From Methanotrichaceae archaeon (GTDB lineage: Archaea; Halobacteriota; Methanosarcinia; Methanotrichales; Methanotrichaceae): a stretch of DNA of 64,000 nucleotides. This document shows positions 2,173 to 54,312 of this stretch, piece by piece. Below the pieces are notes generated by a model, which was given only the letters and a program-made list of their open reading frames with translations, did no database searches and had not been told where the DNA came from. Position numbers and translations under genes: made by a program. The DNA lies in contig JAFGMR010000079.1 of NCBI GenBank assembly GCA_016927425.1, positions 1 through 64,000 of the forward strand. The letters are read 5' to 3'. Position 1 is the stretch's first letter. Each line of letters starts with the position of its first letter.

Positions 2173-2868
2173 TTGAGATCGTTCCTGGGGGGCGAGGTTC
2201 TGGGCAAGATCGAGCGGGTAGCCACAGGGGTTGTGGGACTGGACGAGATGATGGGAGGAGGGGTGCCGCACCTCTCGACAGTCCTTGTGGCAGGGGAGAG
2301 CGGCACCGGCAAGACCACTCTATGCATGCAGTTCCTCTGTAAGGGGGCGGAGATGGGTGAGCGTGGCCTCTACTTCAGCGCCTTCAGCGAGCCTCCCGAG
2401 CTGATGCTCCGCTTCATATCGACATACGAGTTCGTAAACCCCCAATATTTCAAGGGCTGCATCAAATATGTGGACCTCGGTGGGTTCTGCGAGGATAGAG
2501 AGAGGCTCCTCCAGACAATCGAAGCCGAGGTCAATAACTTTCGACCGCAGAGGATGGTCATCGACTCACTCTCCGTCCTTGAGAGGGCTCTAAAGCAGGA
2601 GTACCGCCCTCTCCTCCTGTGGCTTGCGAGGATGATCAGGCAGTGGCCCACGACGACTCTGGTCGCAGGCGAGCCGGACCTGGGTGAATCATATCCTGCG
2701 GAGATCGCAGCCCTAGTGGATGGCGTGATCATCCTCTACAACGCTGAGATGGGCTGCATGCGAAGAAGGTCCATGGAGATATTGAAGATGGTGGGCACCT
2801 CCCATCGATGCGGAAAGCAGGCCGTGGATATCTCGGCGAAGGGCTTCATAGTATACCCGGGGCTTTGA
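2173..2868 (+). CDS. KaiC/RAD55-like RecA-superfamily ATPase
   Basis: Single-domain KaiC-like ATPase of 231 residues. The opening motif (TGVVGLDEMMGGG) and Walker A (GESGTGKTT) lie near residues 19-50, and a Walker B strand (RMVIDSL) near residue 125. Archaeal relatives are usually signalling or regulatory ATPases with unknown partners. The TTG start is uncertain: homologous N-termini usually begin close to the ERVATG segment, so the true start may lie a few codons downstream. Two bases separate its stop from the small membrane protein gene, and the transporter-sensor follows with a 4-base overlap. The three genes therefore look like one transcription unit and probably one functional unit (inference). 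Confidence 0.85.
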   Translation: MRSFLGGEVLGKIERVATGVVGLDEMMGGGVPHLSTVLVAGESGTGKTTLCMQFLCKGAEMGERGLYFSAFSEPPELMLRFISTYEFVNPQYFKGCIKYVDLGGFCEDRERLLQTIEAEVNNFRPQRMVIDSLSVLERALKQEYRPLLLWLARMIRQWPTTTLVAGEPDLGESYPAEIAALVDGVIILYNAEMGCMRRRSMEILKMVGTSHRCGKQAVDISAKGFIVYPGL

Positions 2869-2870
2869 TC

Positions 2871-3083
2871 ATGGCGCTATCTTTTGAGGATCTCCTAACG
2901 CAGGGCGAGTTCTGGGCCCTGGCTCTTGTCCTGGCGGTGGCCCTCCTCAACTGGCCTTTCCTCCAGATGGCCAGTGGCGGATTATCGATCGGCGGCTTTC
3001 CCTTCATACTGGTCTACCTGGTCGCCGTTTGGGTGATGATAATCATCGTCTTATTCATGTTCGATCGGAGCACCCAAGAATGA
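2871..3083 (+). CDS. small two-helix membrane protein upstream of SLC5-type sensor
   Basis: A 70-residue protein with two hydrophobic helices (about residues 14-34 and 43-64) and no soluble domain. Its ATG lies two bases after the KaiC-like stop. Its TGA overlaps the ATG of the next gene as ATGA, so translation is probably coupled. Small membrane proteins of this kind are known beside sodium:solute symporter-type genes, where they act as an accessory subunit or chaperone. That role is inferred here from position and topology only. Confidence 0.75.
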   Translation: MALSFEDLLTQGEFWALALVLAVALLNWPFLQMASGGLSIGGFPFILVYLVAVWVMIIIVLFMFDRSTQE

Positions 3084-6000
3084 CCAGCGCCCTACTTGCC
3101 CTGGTTTGCATGGTCGTTTATCTGCTCCTCCTCTTTGCGGTAGCCCACTATGCCGACAGGAAGCGCGAGATTGGAGAGAGCATAGTCTCCAATCCTTACG
3201 TCTATGCCCTATCGCTCTCCGTCTACTGCACCGCGTGGACCTTTTATGGAAGCATAGGCCGGGCGGCGAGCACCGGCCTTGGATTTTTGCCCATCTACAT
3301 CGGGCCAACCCTTGTGATGCTGACGGGATGGTTCATCATCAGAAAGATGATCCGCATCTCCAAGGAGCATCGCCTTACATCGATCAGCGACTTCATCAGC
3401 TTTCGGTACGGCAGGAGCTACGCCATCGGCTCTCTCGTAACGATCCTGAGCCTGGTGGTGATCACCCCCTACATCGCCCTTCAGCTTATAGCCATCACGA
3501 GCTCCATGAACGTGATCGGTGGGGGCCAAGACCTCGGCGTGGAGAGCAAGATGTCAGTTGCTGCCCTTCTGGGCCTCTTCGCAATAATCTTCGGGGCGAG
3601 ACATCTCGACCCGATGGAGCGGCACGAGGGATTGATCGCAGCCATTGCCTTCGAGTCGATAGTGAAGCTCGTGGCCTTCCTGGTCGTGGGGATCTACATC
3701 ACATATGGGATCTTCGATGGTTACGGCGAGATCATGAGCGGCGTGATTGCCTCGCCAGAGTACTCGCACCTCTTGAATATCGACTACACATCCTGGTTCA
3801 CCCTCACGATGATCTCCGCCTTCTCTATCTTATTTCTGCCCCGGCAGTTCCACGTGATGGTTGTGGAGAACTCGGAAGAGCGGCATCTAAAGCGGGCCAT
3901 GTGGCTATTTCCGCTCTATCTCCTTCTGATAAACCTATTCGTTCCAGCGATTGCGGGAGCTGGACTGCTCTTGAATACCCCCGGGTTCCAGGATATGTTC
4001 ATCATAAGCATCCCCTATCTGAAAGGTCAGGAGCTGCTCGCCATATTCGTCTTCATCGGCGGAGCATCTGCAGCAACTGCCATGGTTCTCGTGGAATCGG
4101 TGGCCGTTGGAACCATGATCTTGAACGAGCTCGAGATGCCTCACCTCATGCGATGGATCGGCAAGGGCAGGGACCTTCCAAGCCTCCTCTTGAACATGAA
4201 GAGGTTTAACATACTCTTGGTGATCGGGCTTGGCTACCTGTATTCCCGGGCGGTCGCCTATCACAGCCTTGTAGACATCGGCCTCGTATCGTTCGTTGCC
4301 GCAAGCCAGCTTGCCCCAGCCGCCATCGGTGGCCTGTATTGGAGGAAGGGCAGCCGGGAAGGGGCAATGGCCGGTCTCTTCTCAGGCTTTCTGCTCTGGA
4401 TCTATACAGCGCTCTTGCCGACGATGGTAAAGGCCGACTGGCTCTCAGCGGACCTCTTGGTCCACGGCCCGTTCGGCATCGAGGCGCTACGCCCTACAGC
4501 CCTCTTCGGAACTGAGATGGATATGTGGACGCACTCCACATTCTGGACGTTGCTCGTCAATGGATCGCTCTACGTTCTCTTCTCCCTAATGAGCGTAAAG
4601 AGCCCGGAGGAGAGAGCCCAGATGGACGGCTTCGTCGGCATCTACGAGGGGGGGAGAAGGCCGGTGCCTGCGGAGAAAAGGGAGATCCGCATAGGGACGG
4701 TCGACGAGCTGGAGAGTACCTTGGCGCGGTTTATCGGGCCGGAGAAGGCGGGCCTCGTTGTGAAGGGAGAGCTCGTTCGCATGAACACGAGCAGGGATGG
4801 GATAGACGCACGGGAGCTCCTGGAACTCTGGGACCGCGTCGAGAGGACGCTCACAGGATCGCTTGGCACGTCGGCTGCAAGGATCGTCGAGAAGGAGGTC
4901 TCGGTAAACCCCGTCGTCGAGGCGGCGAGGCCGACGACGCCGCGCTTCCAGCTGGAGGATAGGAGGATATACGTCGTCCCCGAGAAGGCCTACGAGGTCT
5001 TCACCGACCAGATCACCCACGGCATGGAGGGGCTGTGCATCACCACTGCCGATCCCGAGGAGGTTCGCAGCACCTGGGGCTTTGTCGAGACCCCTATAAT
5101 TCGGCTCAACCACGGCAAAGGCCGGGGGAATAGGTACATCTCGCCCACCAATCTGCCGCTCCTCTTCATCACGATCAAGGGCTTCGTCGAGAAGAGCAAG
5201 AACAGCATCATACTCCTCGATAGCTTGGAGTATCTGATCGAGCAGAACCGGGGAATTGCGCCGCCCTCAGAGGTCCTGGACTTCGCAAAGCACCTCGAAG
5301 AGCTCTTCCAGGAGGATCGACGAAAGCTCATCTTGCCCATAAGACCCGATTACCTGAACTGCAAGATCTCCTCCGACGTGGAGCCGGTCTCACATCTGCT
5401 CCTGGCAGTGGGTCCCCTTCCGGAATACCTCTTGCGGGTCTTCGTGGAGGCGATGGTCTCCGGCATTCCAACGCAGTCCCAGGACGCCGTTTTGCGGGAG
5501 ATCGGACTGCCCCCCGGCGAGGTTGCCGTCGGGGAATCGGACTCTTGCGATCCGGATATGCGCGAGGGCGTCGCCGGGCCGGTCGTCCATAGGCTCACAC
5601 GGCGCAGCCTGCTTGCGACGCTAAGGCGAGCTGCCCATCGTATTAAGGAGCTCGATCCCACCTTCGAGATCCATCTAACGCTAGATGACCTATTGAAGAA
5701 GTATGGATTTAGCCCATACGAGCTGGTTCTCGTTCCCGGCACCACCTATGTGATAGAGGAGACCAAGCCCATCCAGAGCCTTGAGATATTCGGAGACCTC
5801 GTTCGCCGCGGCATGGCAGGCCTCTGCATCAGCAGGTATCATCCGGAGAAACTCCATGAGAGGTATGGCATTGAGAAGGAGAGCATAATCTGGCTGACCC
5901 AGAGGGCGCGAGGCGGCCAGGAGTACAGGACGGTTGACCCAACCAACTTCCCTCGCATGTCCACGTTGCTCACCGAGTTCCTGGACCGCGCAGAGGATCC

Positions 6001-6193
6001 CCTCATTTTGTTGGAGGGGCTCGGCTATCTCATAACTCAGAGCAACTACGAGACTGTGCTGCGTTTCATCCAGTCCCAGAGGGACGAGATCGCCCTCAAG
6101 GGGGCCATCTTGCTCGTGCACATAGATCCACTTGCCTTGGACACCAAGGAGGTGCACCGCCTGGAGAGCGAGATGGAGCCTTTGGAGGTGTAA
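3080..6193 (+). CDS. SLC5/SSS-type transporter with STAC-like linker and two DUF835 domains
   Basis: A 1037-residue membrane protein. Residues 1-505 form a sodium:solute symporter-like domain with about 13 hydrophobic helices, resembling the transporter half of CbrA-type sensor kinases. Residues about 510-610 resemble the STAC linker that joins SLC5 transporters to histidine kinases (LESTLARFIG, then ELLELWDRVERTLTGSLG). No kinase follows. Instead there are two DUF835 domains, about 630-760 and 886-1025, each with a VVPEKAYEV- or LVPGTTYVI-type start, a PTN(L/F)P segment and an ILL(D/E)xLxYLI strand. The protein probably senses a substrate or membrane sodium gradient and signals through the DUF835 modules. 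The KaiC-like ATPase upstream is the obvious partner (inference). The ATG was chosen for its 4-base overlap with the upstream gene. Confidence 0.88.
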   Translation: MTSALLALVCMVVYLLLLFAVAHYADRKREIGESIVSNPYVYALSLSVYCTAWTFYGSIGRAASTGLGFLPIYIGPTLVMLTGWFIIRKMIRISKEHRLTSISDFISFRYGRSYAIGSLVTILSLVVITPYIALQLIAITSSMNVIGGGQDLGVESKMSVAALLGLFAIIFGARHLDPMERHEGLIAAIAFESIVKLVAFLVVGIYITYGIFDGYGEIMSGVIASPEYSHLLNIDYTSWFTLTMISAFSILFLPRQFHVMVVENSEERHLKRAMWLFPLYLLLINLFVPAIAGAGLLLNTPGFQDMFIISIPYLKGQELLAIFVFIGGASAATAMVLVESVAVGTMILNELEMPHLMRWIGKGRDLPSLLLNMKRFNILLVIGLGYLYSRAVAYHSLVDIGLVSFVAASQLAPAAIGGLYWRKGSREGAMAGLFSGFLLWIYTALLPTMVKADWLSADLLVHGPFGIEALRPTALFGTEMDMWTHSTFWTLLVNGSLYVLFSLMSVKSPEERAQMDGFVGIYEGGRRPVPAEKREIRIGTVDELESTLARFIGPEKAGLVVKGELVRMNTSRDGIDARELLELWDRVERTLTGSLGTSAARIVEKEVSVNPVVEAARPTTPRFQLEDRRIYVVPEKAYEVFTDQITHGMEGLCITTADPEEVRSTWGFVETPIIRLNHGKGRGNRYISPTNLPLLFITIKGFVEKSKNSIILLDSLEYLIEQNRGIAPPSEVLDFAKHLEELFQEDRRKLILPIRPDYLNCKISSDVEPVSHLLLAVGPLPEYLLRVFVEAMVSGIPTQSQDAVLREIGLPPGEVAVGESDSCDPDMREGVAGPVVHRLTRRSLLATLRRAAHRIKELDPTFEIHLTLDDLLKKYGFSPYELVLVPGTTYVIEETKPIQSLEIFGDLVRRGMAGLCISRYHPEKLHERYGIEKESIIWLTQRARGGQEYRTVDPTNFPRMSTLLTEFLDRAEDPLILLEGLGYLITQSNYETVLRFIQSQRDEIALKGAILLVHIDPLALDTKEVHRLESEMEPLEV

Positions 6194-50507: not shown

Positions 50508-51254
50508 ATGGCAGGGCAGTCAGGGCCAAAGGAGGGCGAGGCCAGGTATCCGCGGGTGGAGTCGGGAATCCCTGGATTCGACGAGCTGGTGGACGGCGGG
50601 TTTCACCAGGGCACAGTCAACACGGTAACGGGCGGGTCAGGCACTGGAAAGACCGTCTTTGCAAGCCAATTTATCTATCACGGCCTGATCAAGGGGGAGA
50701 AGACGATGATCATCACCCCATCGGAGAGCTCGGCCTCCCTCAAGAGGGATCTTAACTCCTCCTTCGGTTGGGACCTCTGGAAGTACGAGAAGGAGGAGCT
50801 CCTCGCGGTCGTGGATGTGACCGATCCGGTGCTTAGATTGCAAAAGAGCATAGACGTCGACACCGTGGAGTTCCTTATCAACTTTAGAAAGCTCGTCTCC
50901 AGGAAGGTCTCCGAGGAGAAGCCAAAACGAGTCTTCATCGACGACTTGATGGCGTTCTTCACCGCAGTCGAGACACCTTTCAAGATGCGCTCCCTAGCTG
51001 ACGACCTCTTCGGCCCCCTGCGTGCAGAAGGGGTGACGTCGGTTGTCACCATCGGGACTACGTTTGGCATGAACGAGATACTGGAGTACGGGGCAGACTC
51101 CTGTACCATCCTCGACCGGATACGGATTGGTAACAACCTCGTCAGATCGATCTATGTAATGAAGATGAGGGGCTCGAAGATCTCGAACAGCATCAGGATC
51201 CTGGACATCTCGGACGAGGGAATGGCAGTGTCGACCCTCCAGCCTTACCCCTGA
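50508..51254 (+). CDS. KaiC-like RecA-superfamily ATPase, glycogen cluster
   Basis: A 248-residue single KaiC domain. It starts with VESGIPGFDELVDGGF, Walker A is GGSGTGKT (about residues 42-49) and Walker B is RVFIDDL (about 140-147). It is a second KaiC-like protein, different from that at 2173. It lies six bases before the glycogen synthase-like gene on the same strand, and a regulatory role in polysaccharide synthesis is suggested by this position (inference). Confidence 0.88.
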   Translation: MAGQSGPKEGEARYPRVESGIPGFDELVDGGFHQGTVNTVTGGSGTGKTVFASQFIYHGLIKGEKTMIITPSESSASLKRDLNSSFGWDLWKYEKEELLAVVDVTDPVLRLQKSIDVDTVEFLINFRKLVSRKVSEEKPKRVFIDDLMAFFTAVETPFKMRSLADDLFGPLRAEGVTSVVTIGTTFGMNEILEYGADSCTILDRIRIGNNLVRSIYVMKMRGSKISNSIRILDISDEGMAVSTLQPYP

Positions 51255-51260
51255 GGCGGC

Positions 51261-53045
51261 ATGATTCAGAGATGGATAATACTCGCAGGCGAGGAGGGGG
51301 GGCCCAAGTCCAACAAGATGGGCGGCATCTGGGACGTCCTGGACGCCGAGGCCCGAACCCTCGCCAGGCTAGCATCGACCGGTGAGATAGACAAAGGCCT
51401 AAAAATACTGGTCGCAGGACCCTACTACCCGACCGCGGGCTCCGACTGGAACAAGGGCAAGTCGAGGGTCACCGATATCAGCGGCTATGACGAGCTCGAT
51501 ATGGGACGGGACCTGGAGTCGGCTCTGGGCCTTTTGAAGTCCGAGGGGCTCGAGACGGTGACCTGTCAGAAGGAAGTCGATGGGGTTCCAATTGGCTACC
51601 TCCTCTTCAACACCCACTACTACGATAGCGTTCTTACGACCAGGGGCGGCGTCGAGGTAACATTGAACGCGGCGATCAAGGCGGAGGCCTGGGAGGTAGC
51701 CGGCCTCGACTCCATGCGGTTCGAGCGGCTGCAAAACGGATCTGAGTACGTCCATTACCTGGGCCTATCCTACGCGGTCTCTGAGCTCGCAAGGATGCTC
51801 GTCCGCCTGGGTGAAGAGCCTGCAAAGAGGTACAAGGACGAGGCCGTATCGGAGTTCGCCCGCTCAGTCATACCTCAGATGGGAATCTCCCTCCACTGCC
51901 ATGAGTTCGGCGTCTTCTACGCTCTCGCCCGGGTCAAGGGGCTCGGCCTGCCTGTGCGGACCATGGCAACGATGCATGCCACGACCCCTGGAAGGGCCGC
52001 AGGCTACCGCTCCTTGGATAAGATCTTTCGAAACGACAAGACCTGGGACCCGAACACGCCCGTCTCCTTCGCCAGTCTCGAGTCGCTTGCCAAGTACGCA
52101 GATGTGACCACGTTCGTTGGCGACTCCACAATGAAGGAAGCCCATCTTTTCCATGACATAAGCGGCATTGTGATCAGAAACGGGATCGAGGTTGAATCCG
52201 ACGGCATAGACTGGAACAAGAAGGATCGCTGCCGGTCGAAGATCCAGAAGTTCATCTCCGAGAACCTATATAAGCAGGTCAACGGCGAGAGGATGAACTC
52301 GGAGAATATCCTTCCGATATTCACGATATCGCGAATCGAGATAGAGAACAAGGGCTATCCACAGCTCCTCGACGCCCTGACATTGGCTGACCACCTGCTC
52401 AAGCATAGGATCATGGGCCAGAGGCTCGCCGAGGGGGTGAAGATCATCTGCTTCTTGATAGCGGCCCACGGGCCCAAGGCCAAGGAGAAGCTCCCCGAAG
52501 GCTTCCCCCTCAACCTCACGCCGGAGGTCCTCGTCTGGGAGGAGAACCGAATGTACAAGATGATCCAGGAGAGGGGGCTCGATATCAAGAACCTGATCTC
52601 GGGCAACCGGCAGGTATCGGCGGTCCTCTATCCCCAGTGGGTCGGGCCCGACGATGGCGGCCTTGGCATGACCGCCGACGAGATCATGGCAGGCTGCATT
52701 GCAGGCATCTTTCCTTCGCAATACGAGCCCTTCCTCCTGACAGGGCTCGAGGCTGGAAGGGAGGGGACCCCGAGCATCGTGAGCCGTGCCTGTGGCTTCT
52801 CCGACGCCCTGAAGAAGATCAGACGGCTTGTGAGGGGCATGGGGGGCGTAGTCGTCGTCGACAATATCGATAACGCCCATCAGGAGATGATTCTCGACTA
52901 CGCCCTTGCGATGGACTACTTCACTTGGACCTACCTGGACGACCAGGTCAAGTACCGCCTGCTCTGCGAGGAGTCTTATGCCCTAGCAAAGCAGATGGGC
53001 TGGAGGGAGCCGGTCCTGGAGTACTATCATAACCTGGTGGTGTAG
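51261..53045 (+). CDS. GT3-family glycogen synthase
   Basis: A 594-residue enzyme of the eukaryote/archaeal-type GT3 family rather than the bacterial GlgA type. Signals are the N-terminal EEGGPKSNKMGGIWDVL, the HCHEFGVFYALAR and TMHATTPGRAAGYRSLDKIF region, the acceptor-side NGIEVESDGIDWNKKDR and the C-terminal catalytic FPSQYEPFLLTGLEAGREGTPSIVSRACGF with its two glutamates. It builds alpha-1,4-glucan from a nucleotide sugar. The start is ATG 51261, six bases after the KaiC-like stop. Confidence 0.92.
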   Translation: MIQRWIILAGEEGGPKSNKMGGIWDVLDAEARTLARLASTGEIDKGLKILVAGPYYPTAGSDWNKGKSRVTDISGYDELDMGRDLESALGLLKSEGLETVTCQKEVDGVPIGYLLFNTHYYDSVLTTRGGVEVTLNAAIKAEAWEVAGLDSMRFERLQNGSEYVHYLGLSYAVSELARMLVRLGEEPAKRYKDEAVSEFARSVIPQMGISLHCHEFGVFYALARVKGLGLPVRTMATMHATTPGRAAGYRSLDKIFRNDKTWDPNTPVSFASLESLAKYADVTTFVGDSTMKEAHLFHDISGIVIRNGIEVESDGIDWNKKDRCRSKIQKFISENLYKQVNGERMNSENILPIFTISRIEIENKGYPQLLDALTLADHLLKHRIMGQRLAEGVKIICFLIAAHGPKAKEKLPEGFPLNLTPEVLVWEENRMYKMIQERGLDIKNLISGNRQVSAVLYPQWVGPDDGGLGMTADEIMAGCIAGIFPSQYEPFLLTGLEAGREGTPSIVSRACGFSDALKKIRRLVRGMGGVVVVDNIDNAHQEMILDYALAMDYFTWTYLDDQVKYRLLCEESYALAKQMGWREPVLEYYHNLVV

Positions 53046-53076
53046 GCGATATGCGAGGATTATGTGAGGATGAAGG

Positions 53077-54312
53077 ATGGAGATGGACGGCATGAAAGTT
53101 GCATATCTCAGCACCGAGTACCCTCCAAAGATCTATGGGGGGCTTGGGGTATACGTGGACTCAATATCGAGGGAGCTTGCATCACTCGGAGACCAGATCA
53201 CTGTCTTTACGCCTGGTGATGAGACCCTCAAGAAGAGGCAGAGCCGCCGAAAGGTAACAGCCATCAGGGTAAGGCCGAATCCGATGAGAGACGGCCTCGA
53301 GATATTCCTCTCCCCTGAGACGATCGGCTGGGGGGAAGAGGGGCTCGACCTTCTCCTCGACCTCTTGAGCTTCAACCAGATTACAGCATCGGAGCTCTTG
53401 GAGAAGGGGCCCTTCGACCTCTGCGTGGCCCACGATTGGTTGACGCTTCCAGCGGGCATGGCGGCAAAGAGGTCTGGACTGCCCCTAATCTATCACGTCC
53501 ACGGCCTGGAGGTCGGGCGCTCCGACCACCCTAACTCACAGCTGGTGGAGCTGGAGAAGAGGGGGGCTCATCTGGCAGATGCTGTGATGACGGTATCATA
53601 TGCGATGAAGGAGCAGCTCGTCGAGCTCGGCGTTCCGGCGGAGAAGATCCACGTCTGCTATCACGGGGTCGATACCGGTCTCTTCAGCCCGGATGCGGTC
53701 GACCTCGGGCGTTCCAAGGAGATCCGTGAGCGGCTGGGAATAGATGAGGGCGATTTGGTCATTCTCTTCCTCGGAAGGCTGGAGCCTGTAAAGGGCGTTA
53801 TTCAACTGTTGCAGGCAATGCCCTCGGTGCTCGAGAGAAACCCCCGGGCAAGGTTGCTCATGGTTGGAAAGGGCACCCTCGAAGAGGAGGTCCGTTGCGA
53901 GGCAGAGCGACTACCGATCTTGCTCGTCACAGATTTCCTCGATGAGAAGGAGAAGGTCCAGTACTATGGCCTCGCAGACGTCTGCGTCTTTCCAAGCCTC
54001 TACGAGCCCTTTGGCATTGTGGCGCTCGAGGCTGCAGCCATGGGGAAGGCAGCCGTTGTTGGTGCAAGCGGAGTAAGCGGTCTCGCTGAGATCGTGAACA
54101 ACCCTGCAACGGAGAGGCCGACCGGTGTGCATGTGGACTCGCGCTCCCCCGAGGATATCGCATGGGGGATCAACCTCGCCCTGGAGGATCCACTGCGGCT
54201 TTCCGAGTGGGGGAGAAATGCACGAGAGCGCTCCTTAAACCTCTTCACGTGGCCCCGGGCAGCCGAGCTAACCCAAGAGATATACAGGGAGGTAGTCGGA
54301 TCACCGAGCTGA
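53077..54312 (+). CDS. GT4-family glycosyltransferase (glycogen synthase-like)
   Basis: A 411-residue GT-B fold enzyme. The N-terminal VAYLSTEYPPKIYGGLGVYVDS is glycogen/starch-synthase-like, HVHGLEVGRSDHPN lies mid-domain, and the C-terminal half has LFLGRLEPVKGV and the catalytic FPSLYEPFGIVALEAAAMGKAAVV. ATG 53077 has GAGG upstream. It follows the GT3 gene in the same direction, so the two synthases are probably co-expressed. Confidence 0.9.
   Translation: MEMDGMKVAYLSTEYPPKIYGGLGVYVDSISRELASLGDQITVFTPGDETLKKRQSRRKVTAIRVRPNPMRDGLEIFLSPETIGWGEEGLDLLLDLLSFNQITASELLEKGPFDLCVAHDWLTLPAGMAAKRSGLPLIYHVHGLEVGRSDHPNSQLVELEKRGAHLADAVMTVSYAMKEQLVELGVPAEKIHVCYHGVDTGLFSPDAVDLGRSKEIRERLGIDEGDLVILFLGRLEPVKGVIQLLQAMPSVLERNPRARLLMVGKGTLEEEVRCEAERLPILLVTDFLDEKEKVQYYGLADVCVFPSLYEPFGIVALEAAAMGKAAVVGASGVSGLAEIVNNPATERPTGVHVDSRSPEDIAWGINLALEDPLRLSEWGRNARERSLNLFTWPRAAELTQEIYREVVGSPS
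54287..54293 (+). promoter_or_regulatory. possible ribosome binding site of galT
   Basis: GGGAGGT lies within the last codons of the GT4 gene and points to ATC 54300 as start. It could be coincidence, since these bases also encode the GT4 C-terminus. Confidence 0.4.

Follow-up and report, generated by a model that had tools for sequence, protein, structure and literature searches.

A putative archaeal transceptor joining a bacterial-type SLC5-STAC sensory module to two DUF835 domains, with a CbrX-like small protein and an optional KaiC-like ATPase

The window analyzed here, a 64,000-nucleotide stretch of contig JAFGMR010000079.1 from a Methanotrichaceae archaeon (assembly GCA_016927425.1), carries a three-gene operon on the forward strand that encodes an SLC5-STAC-DUF835-DUF835 protein together with two smaller proteins. 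The first gene (2173-2868) encodes P0001, a KaiC-family ATPase of 231 residues, whose TTG start codon is uncertain. The second (2871-3083) encodes P0002, a small two-helix membrane protein of 70 residues, and the third (3080-6193) encodes P0003, a putative transceptor of 1037 residues. The genes are tightly packed, with a two-base spacing between P0001 and P0002 (TGA-TC-ATG) and an ATGA overlap between P0002 and P0003; all three were found as the initial annotation of this DNA had described them. Among named relatives, the nearest one found was a Methanothrix metagenome-assembled genome (MAG), with an identity of 60%.

The N-terminal transporter domain of P0003 (3080-4600) is predicted to have a LeuT fold with about 13 transmembrane (TM) helices, and is followed by a STAC domain (4640-4895). 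Neither the SLC5 nor the STAC region gave a Pfam or NCBIfam match, and searches against the PDB and plasmid sequences were used in their place. The PDB search revealed one continuous alignment of residues 9-601 to the SLC5-STAC cryo-EM chain of CbrA (10ed_A), with an E value of 3e-80, and Foldseek supported the SLC5 fold of the transporter domain. Four STAC helices were predicted at residues 541-605 with moderate confidence. The STAC signature, described as LGPx(x)A (PMC4834066), reads IGPEKA in P0003 (residues 552-557), in which G553 and A557 are invariant in 36/36 orthologues. Of the pocket residues of CbrA, Y51, W55, F71, Y75 and F406 do not vary among the archaeal proteins, which carry either Thr or Ser at the position of S53, either Thr or Ala at that of A56, and Ser at that of F248. 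The lysine of the Na2 site, K196, is invariant in all 36 archaeal proteins, and therefore a proton-coupled mechanism of the SLC5 core is plausible from the sequence.

The plasmid search with residues 1-600 retrieved bacterial SLC5-STAC proteins from Paracoccus, Cupriavidus, Azoarcus, Sinorhizobium and others, most of which share 38-47% identity with P0003, compared to only ~25% for ordinary SSS sodium/solute symporters. The sensor kinases of Cupriavidus encoded near actP are 45-47% identical to the sensory half of P0003, and RpuS (locus L093) is 39% identical over 600 residues. No histidine-kinase profile matched P0003, nor did HisKA, HATPase, PAS, REC or GGDEF. P0003 thus shares only the sensory half of the SLC5-STAC sensor family represented by CbrA, CrbS and RpuS. 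The CbrA-like architecture proposed in the initial annotation, with two DUF835 modules in place of the absent kinase, is borne out by these results; what had been overlooked is that the cassette has bacterial kin and that the small protein is CbrX-like. Two further plasmid loci were observed in the course of the search. On the Azoarcus plasmid pAZKH (L090:4968-8159), SLC5-STAC is joined to GGDEF-EAL, so that here too the cassette carries an output other than a kinase. On a Paracoccus ferrooxidans plasmid (L100:2239-5128), the gene for a small membrane protein overlaps that of an 885-residue SLC5-type protein, annotated as a plain sodium:solute symporter, within a response-regulator cluster.

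The C-terminal half of P0003 consists of two DUF835 modules, module 1 (4955-5450; about residues 626-790) and module 2 (5735-6178; about residues 886-1033). The DUF835 profile (PF05763) matched twice, at about residues 626-750 and 898-1032 (total 2e-50), with scores of 123 and 56 bits against a Pfam gathering cut-off of 33.1. Both modules lack a P-loop in sequence and possess the late ILLxxLxYLI strand pointed out earlier, at about residues 709-718 and 975-985. AlphaFold2 prediction of the tandem (residues 620-1037) yielded a model with a predicted local distance difference test (pLDDT) score of 87.6 and a predicted template modeling (pTM) score of 0.83. In a Foldseek structural similarity search of this model against the PDB, almost all of the 50 best matches were to KaiC, the first of them with an E value of 3.4e-6 and a probability of 1.0. 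In addition, the FlaH model was matched by 36/36 orthologues, with a best value of 1.9e-7. The assignment of DUF835 as a degenerate RecA/KaiC-like domain, suggested from the sequence alone, agrees with these searches and was already published, the domain having been labeled "iKaiC" for inactivated KaiC (PMC5847659).

Sequence comparison across 36 genomes revealed that conservation within P0003 is highest in module 2, with a mean pairwise identity of 73% compared to 69% for SLC5, and with long invariant runs. Module 2 is the likely contact surface. The genome holds only two DUF835 loci, which adjoin two of its three strong KaiC-like genes, and this arrangement favors the view that DUF835 proteins and ATPases of the KaiC type are functionally connected more generally. 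The second of these loci (L076:5031-8051 on G000:C80) is a cluster of a PAS-histidine kinase, a DUF835 protein with a Cys-rich insert and a KaiC-like protein with an altered Walker A motif (GAEGTLKS). A DUF835-KaiC pair of this second type recurs in five other genomes (G005, G010, G016, G021 and G024).

Besides P0002 itself, the small-protein family comprises 36 other orthologues, encoded in every case directly upstream of the transporter gene, mostly with a four-nucleotide overlap, and its members share the motif LNWP...YxxxVW...FDR. A profile of this family searched against 636 open reading frames (ORFs) picked out small ORFs directly upstream of bacterial sensor genes, with E values of 1.9e-12 and 5e-10 in Cupriavidus, 9e-10 in Azoarcus, and 3e-5 and 5e-4 in Paracoccus. 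In Pseudomonas, the gene in the same upstream position encodes CbrX, a two-helix peptide bound to TM3 and TM8 of CbrA (PMC13022988). The P0002 profile does not match the Amphritea orthologue of CbrX significantly (E value of 0.4), and a search against PDB chains gave no significant match. The term CbrX-like is therefore based on gene position, topology and the intermediate bacterial family. These findings suggest that CbrX-like subunits are generally part of the sensory cassette, independent of the kinase.

P0001 matches the KaiC family (PF06745) with an E value of 8e-38, and possesses an intact Walker A motif (GESGTGKT, residues 41-48) and a Walker B motif of MVIDSL. KaiC proteins have a catalytic pair of glutamates and an arginine in the KMR motif; in P0001, the first glutamate is replaced by Ser and the arginine by Val. 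The first glutamate is replaced in 19/19 aligned sequences of the P0001 family, where the pair reads SE, GH or GG, and the KMR arginine is kept in two of the 19. Judged from these motifs, P0001 may act as a slow or non-hydrolyzing ATP-dependent switch. Orthologues (E ≤ 1e-42) are present in 21 of the 37 Methanothrix-type genomes examined, always adjoining the small-protein gene and never elsewhere, whereas the remaining 16 possess distant KaiC paralogues only. For one of these genomes (G011), whose contig stops too near the small gene for the position to be checked, the absence is taken from the genome-wide search. Thus P0001, which is always adjacent yet missing in 16 genomes, depends on P0003 but not the reverse. 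Its distribution requires at least six changes on the transporter tree, read as about six losses. In the close pair G018 and G021 (loci L056 and L059), the gene is cleanly gone from one genome, and the flanking DNA is 93% identical. No pseudogenization is claimed, as the stop codons that seem internal in G001, G010 and G019 fall before the start codon, and the G003 sequence has an N within its break.

This distribution bears directly on the partnership proposed in the initial annotation, in which the DUF835 modules hetero-oligomerize with the adjacent ATPase as an obligate output that couples transport to ATPase-based signaling. The tight operon, the position of the KaiC orthologue beside the transporter in 21/21 genomes that possess it, and the KaiC-like fold of DUF835 all favor this model. 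However, the ATPase has been lost repeatedly, once cleanly and recently, from genomes that keep both the transporter and the small protein, and the conservation of module 2 is 0.752 both with and without P0001. Hetero-oligomerization with P0001 therefore cannot be the core mechanism; the model is refuted in its obligate form, and we regard it overall as unlikely. What stands of it is the KaiC likeness of DUF835 and the adjacency of the ATPase wherever present. Elsewhere in the window (50508-54312), a further KaiC-like gene (50508-51254), found in 10/10 genomes scanned, is followed after six bases by genes for a glycogen-synthase-like protein and a glycosyltransferase, and possibly ties KaiC to the way methanogens store carbon.

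The small protein and the transporter are present together in 37/37 genomes. The fusion is intact in 35 of the 36 relatives, including genomes of one or two contigs, and is split across two contigs in the other (G033); chance joining or MAG contamination was therefore rejected. Outside the family, a sample of 394 genomes of the phylum yielded matches at E < 1e-20 to the DUF835 modules only and no full-length fusion, and among the DUF835 frames listed from 238 genomes of the class, none was longer than 900 residues. In the tree, the proteins from archaea group as a single clade (98/99) among the bacterial ones. As the tree resolves neither the deep bacterial branches nor the distant outgroups, the direction of transfer is taken from the distribution alone, which suggests that the family's ancestor acquired the bacterial cassette once. 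According to a 2017 publication by the authors of the STAC description (PMC5715377), Archaea lack STAC-containing signaling proteins; the archaeal SLC5-STAC-DUF835 protein is an exception to that statement. Its sensory half is a known cassette, to which a new output of archaeal type is attached; DUF835 as iKaiC was itself already known, and an earlier mention of this exact fusion in the literature is possible.

The pocket string YTWTFYKSF is identical in the Cupriavidus sensors adjoining the acetate symporter ActP (5e-290) and in one Methylobacterium sensor, and a Sphingopyxis relative of the sensor sits near acs. The pocket of RpuS, which responds to pyruvate, differs at two positions only. 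These similarities hint weakly that the ligand is possibly a small nutrient, such as acetate or another monocarboxylate. In a search of the archaeal locus for conserved neighbors that would point to a regulon, only a divergent aspS was found (27 genomes); no acetate gene is a conserved neighbor, and no acs or transporter gene is common to most genomes.

Altogether, we consider it moderately probable that P0003 is a bacterial-type SLC5-STAC transceptor with a CbrX-like subunit, in which the kinase has been replaced by a catalytically dead KaiC/RecA-like DUF835 tandem that feeds an archaeal KaiC network. Nutrient status would then probably be reported to a KaiC-type network rather than to a two-component system. 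The domain order, the homologies of the parts, the conservation of the small protein together with the transporter, and the dispensable status of the ATPase come directly from sequence or structure prediction; the mechanism proposed below is conditional. The SLC5 core would bind a ligand or run proton-driven transport, with K196 in the Na2 site, and the ligand or transport state would shift the STAC domain docked beneath the transporter, as proposed for CbrA. This movement would rearrange the DUF835 tandem, which would bind or release a KaiC-type ATPase or another protein of the KaiC network and thereby alter its assembly or ATPase state. P0001 would be one such partner in the lineages that keep it, with a different partner elsewhere. 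The swapping of outputs is supported by the GGDEF-EAL output of Azoarcus, since bacterial SLC5-STAC proteins also carry swapped outputs.

Several points weigh against this proposal. The kinases CbrA and CrbS can respond without SLC5 transport (PMC5715377, PMC6591292), and by analogy SLC5 may not be the sensor in P0003. The pocket residues are common to sensors with different ligands, and thus cannot name the ligand. The TM-score of the tandem against KaiC is just 0.25 in Foldseek, because the two-domain arrangement differs from that of KaiC, and the DUF835 tandem and the family of the adjacent KaiC did not match significantly in a profile-profile comparison. Moreover, KaiC likeness without a P-loop does not prove that nucleotide binding is lost, and the neighboring KaiC is missing from 16 of the 37 genomes.

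The flow of information might also be reversed, with the DUF835 tandem and the KaiC network as the input that gates uptake through STAC. STAC has been proposed as a regulator of solute flow (PMC5715377, PMC4834066), archaea possess stand-alone STAC proteins beside effector-less receptors, and DUF835 has no known catalytic output. In bacteria, however, this cassette is followed by a kinase or by GGDEF-EAL as output, indicating that the flow is normally outward, and we consider reversal rather improbable. That P0003 is a plain transporter with vestigial, non-signaling C-terminal domains, as the missing kinase and the missing P-loop might suggest, is very improbable given that no other part of P0003 is as well conserved as module 2.

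The preferred reading, an SLC5-STAC transceptor with a DUF835 output, would be a natural output swap from a bacterial-type sensor to an archaeal-type output. It would also provide a concrete membrane input for the proposed archaeal KaiC-based signaling network, whose inputs are poorly characterized. We tentatively suggest, with less confidence, that such a transceptor works free of phosphorylation, the state of SLC5 being passed via STAC to dead KaiC domains as a membrane nutrient input to KaiC-type ATPase hubs, and possibly serving as an acetate sensor in these acetate-specialist methanogens.

Among the known systems nearest to P0003, CbrXA of Pseudomonas (PDB 10ed, PMC13022988), composed of an SLC5-STAC-PAS-histidine kinase and the peptide CbrX, shares with it the SLC5-STAC core over residues 9-601, the conserved pocket positions, the Na2-site lysine, and a small two-helix protein encoded just upstream with a gene overlap. 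They differ in that P0003 has two DUF835 modules and no PAS or kinase domain, F248 of the CbrA pocket corresponds to S246, and the small proteins are not significantly similar when compared through the Amphritea orthologue. The hybrid kinases CrbS (acetate) and RpuS (pyruvate) belong to the same SLC5-STAC family (PMC5715377, PMC9100948); however, they signal through a histidine kinase and a LuxR-type response regulator, and they regulate acs/actP or mctP, none of which lies near the archaeal gene. P0001 and DUF835 belong to or resemble the family of the archaeal KaiC hubs, including ArlH/FlaH (Makarova 2017), whereas the present locus has no circadian or archaellum genes, and P0001 has lost the first catalytic glutamate and, as usual in its family, the KMR arginine. 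In methanogens, the iKaiC response regulators of the REC-DUF835 and REC-PAS-DUF835 types (PMC5847659) likewise use DUF835, an inactivated KaiC, as a signaling output; their input is a receiver domain, whereas that of P0003 is a transporter-STAC module, with DUF835 arranged in tandem.

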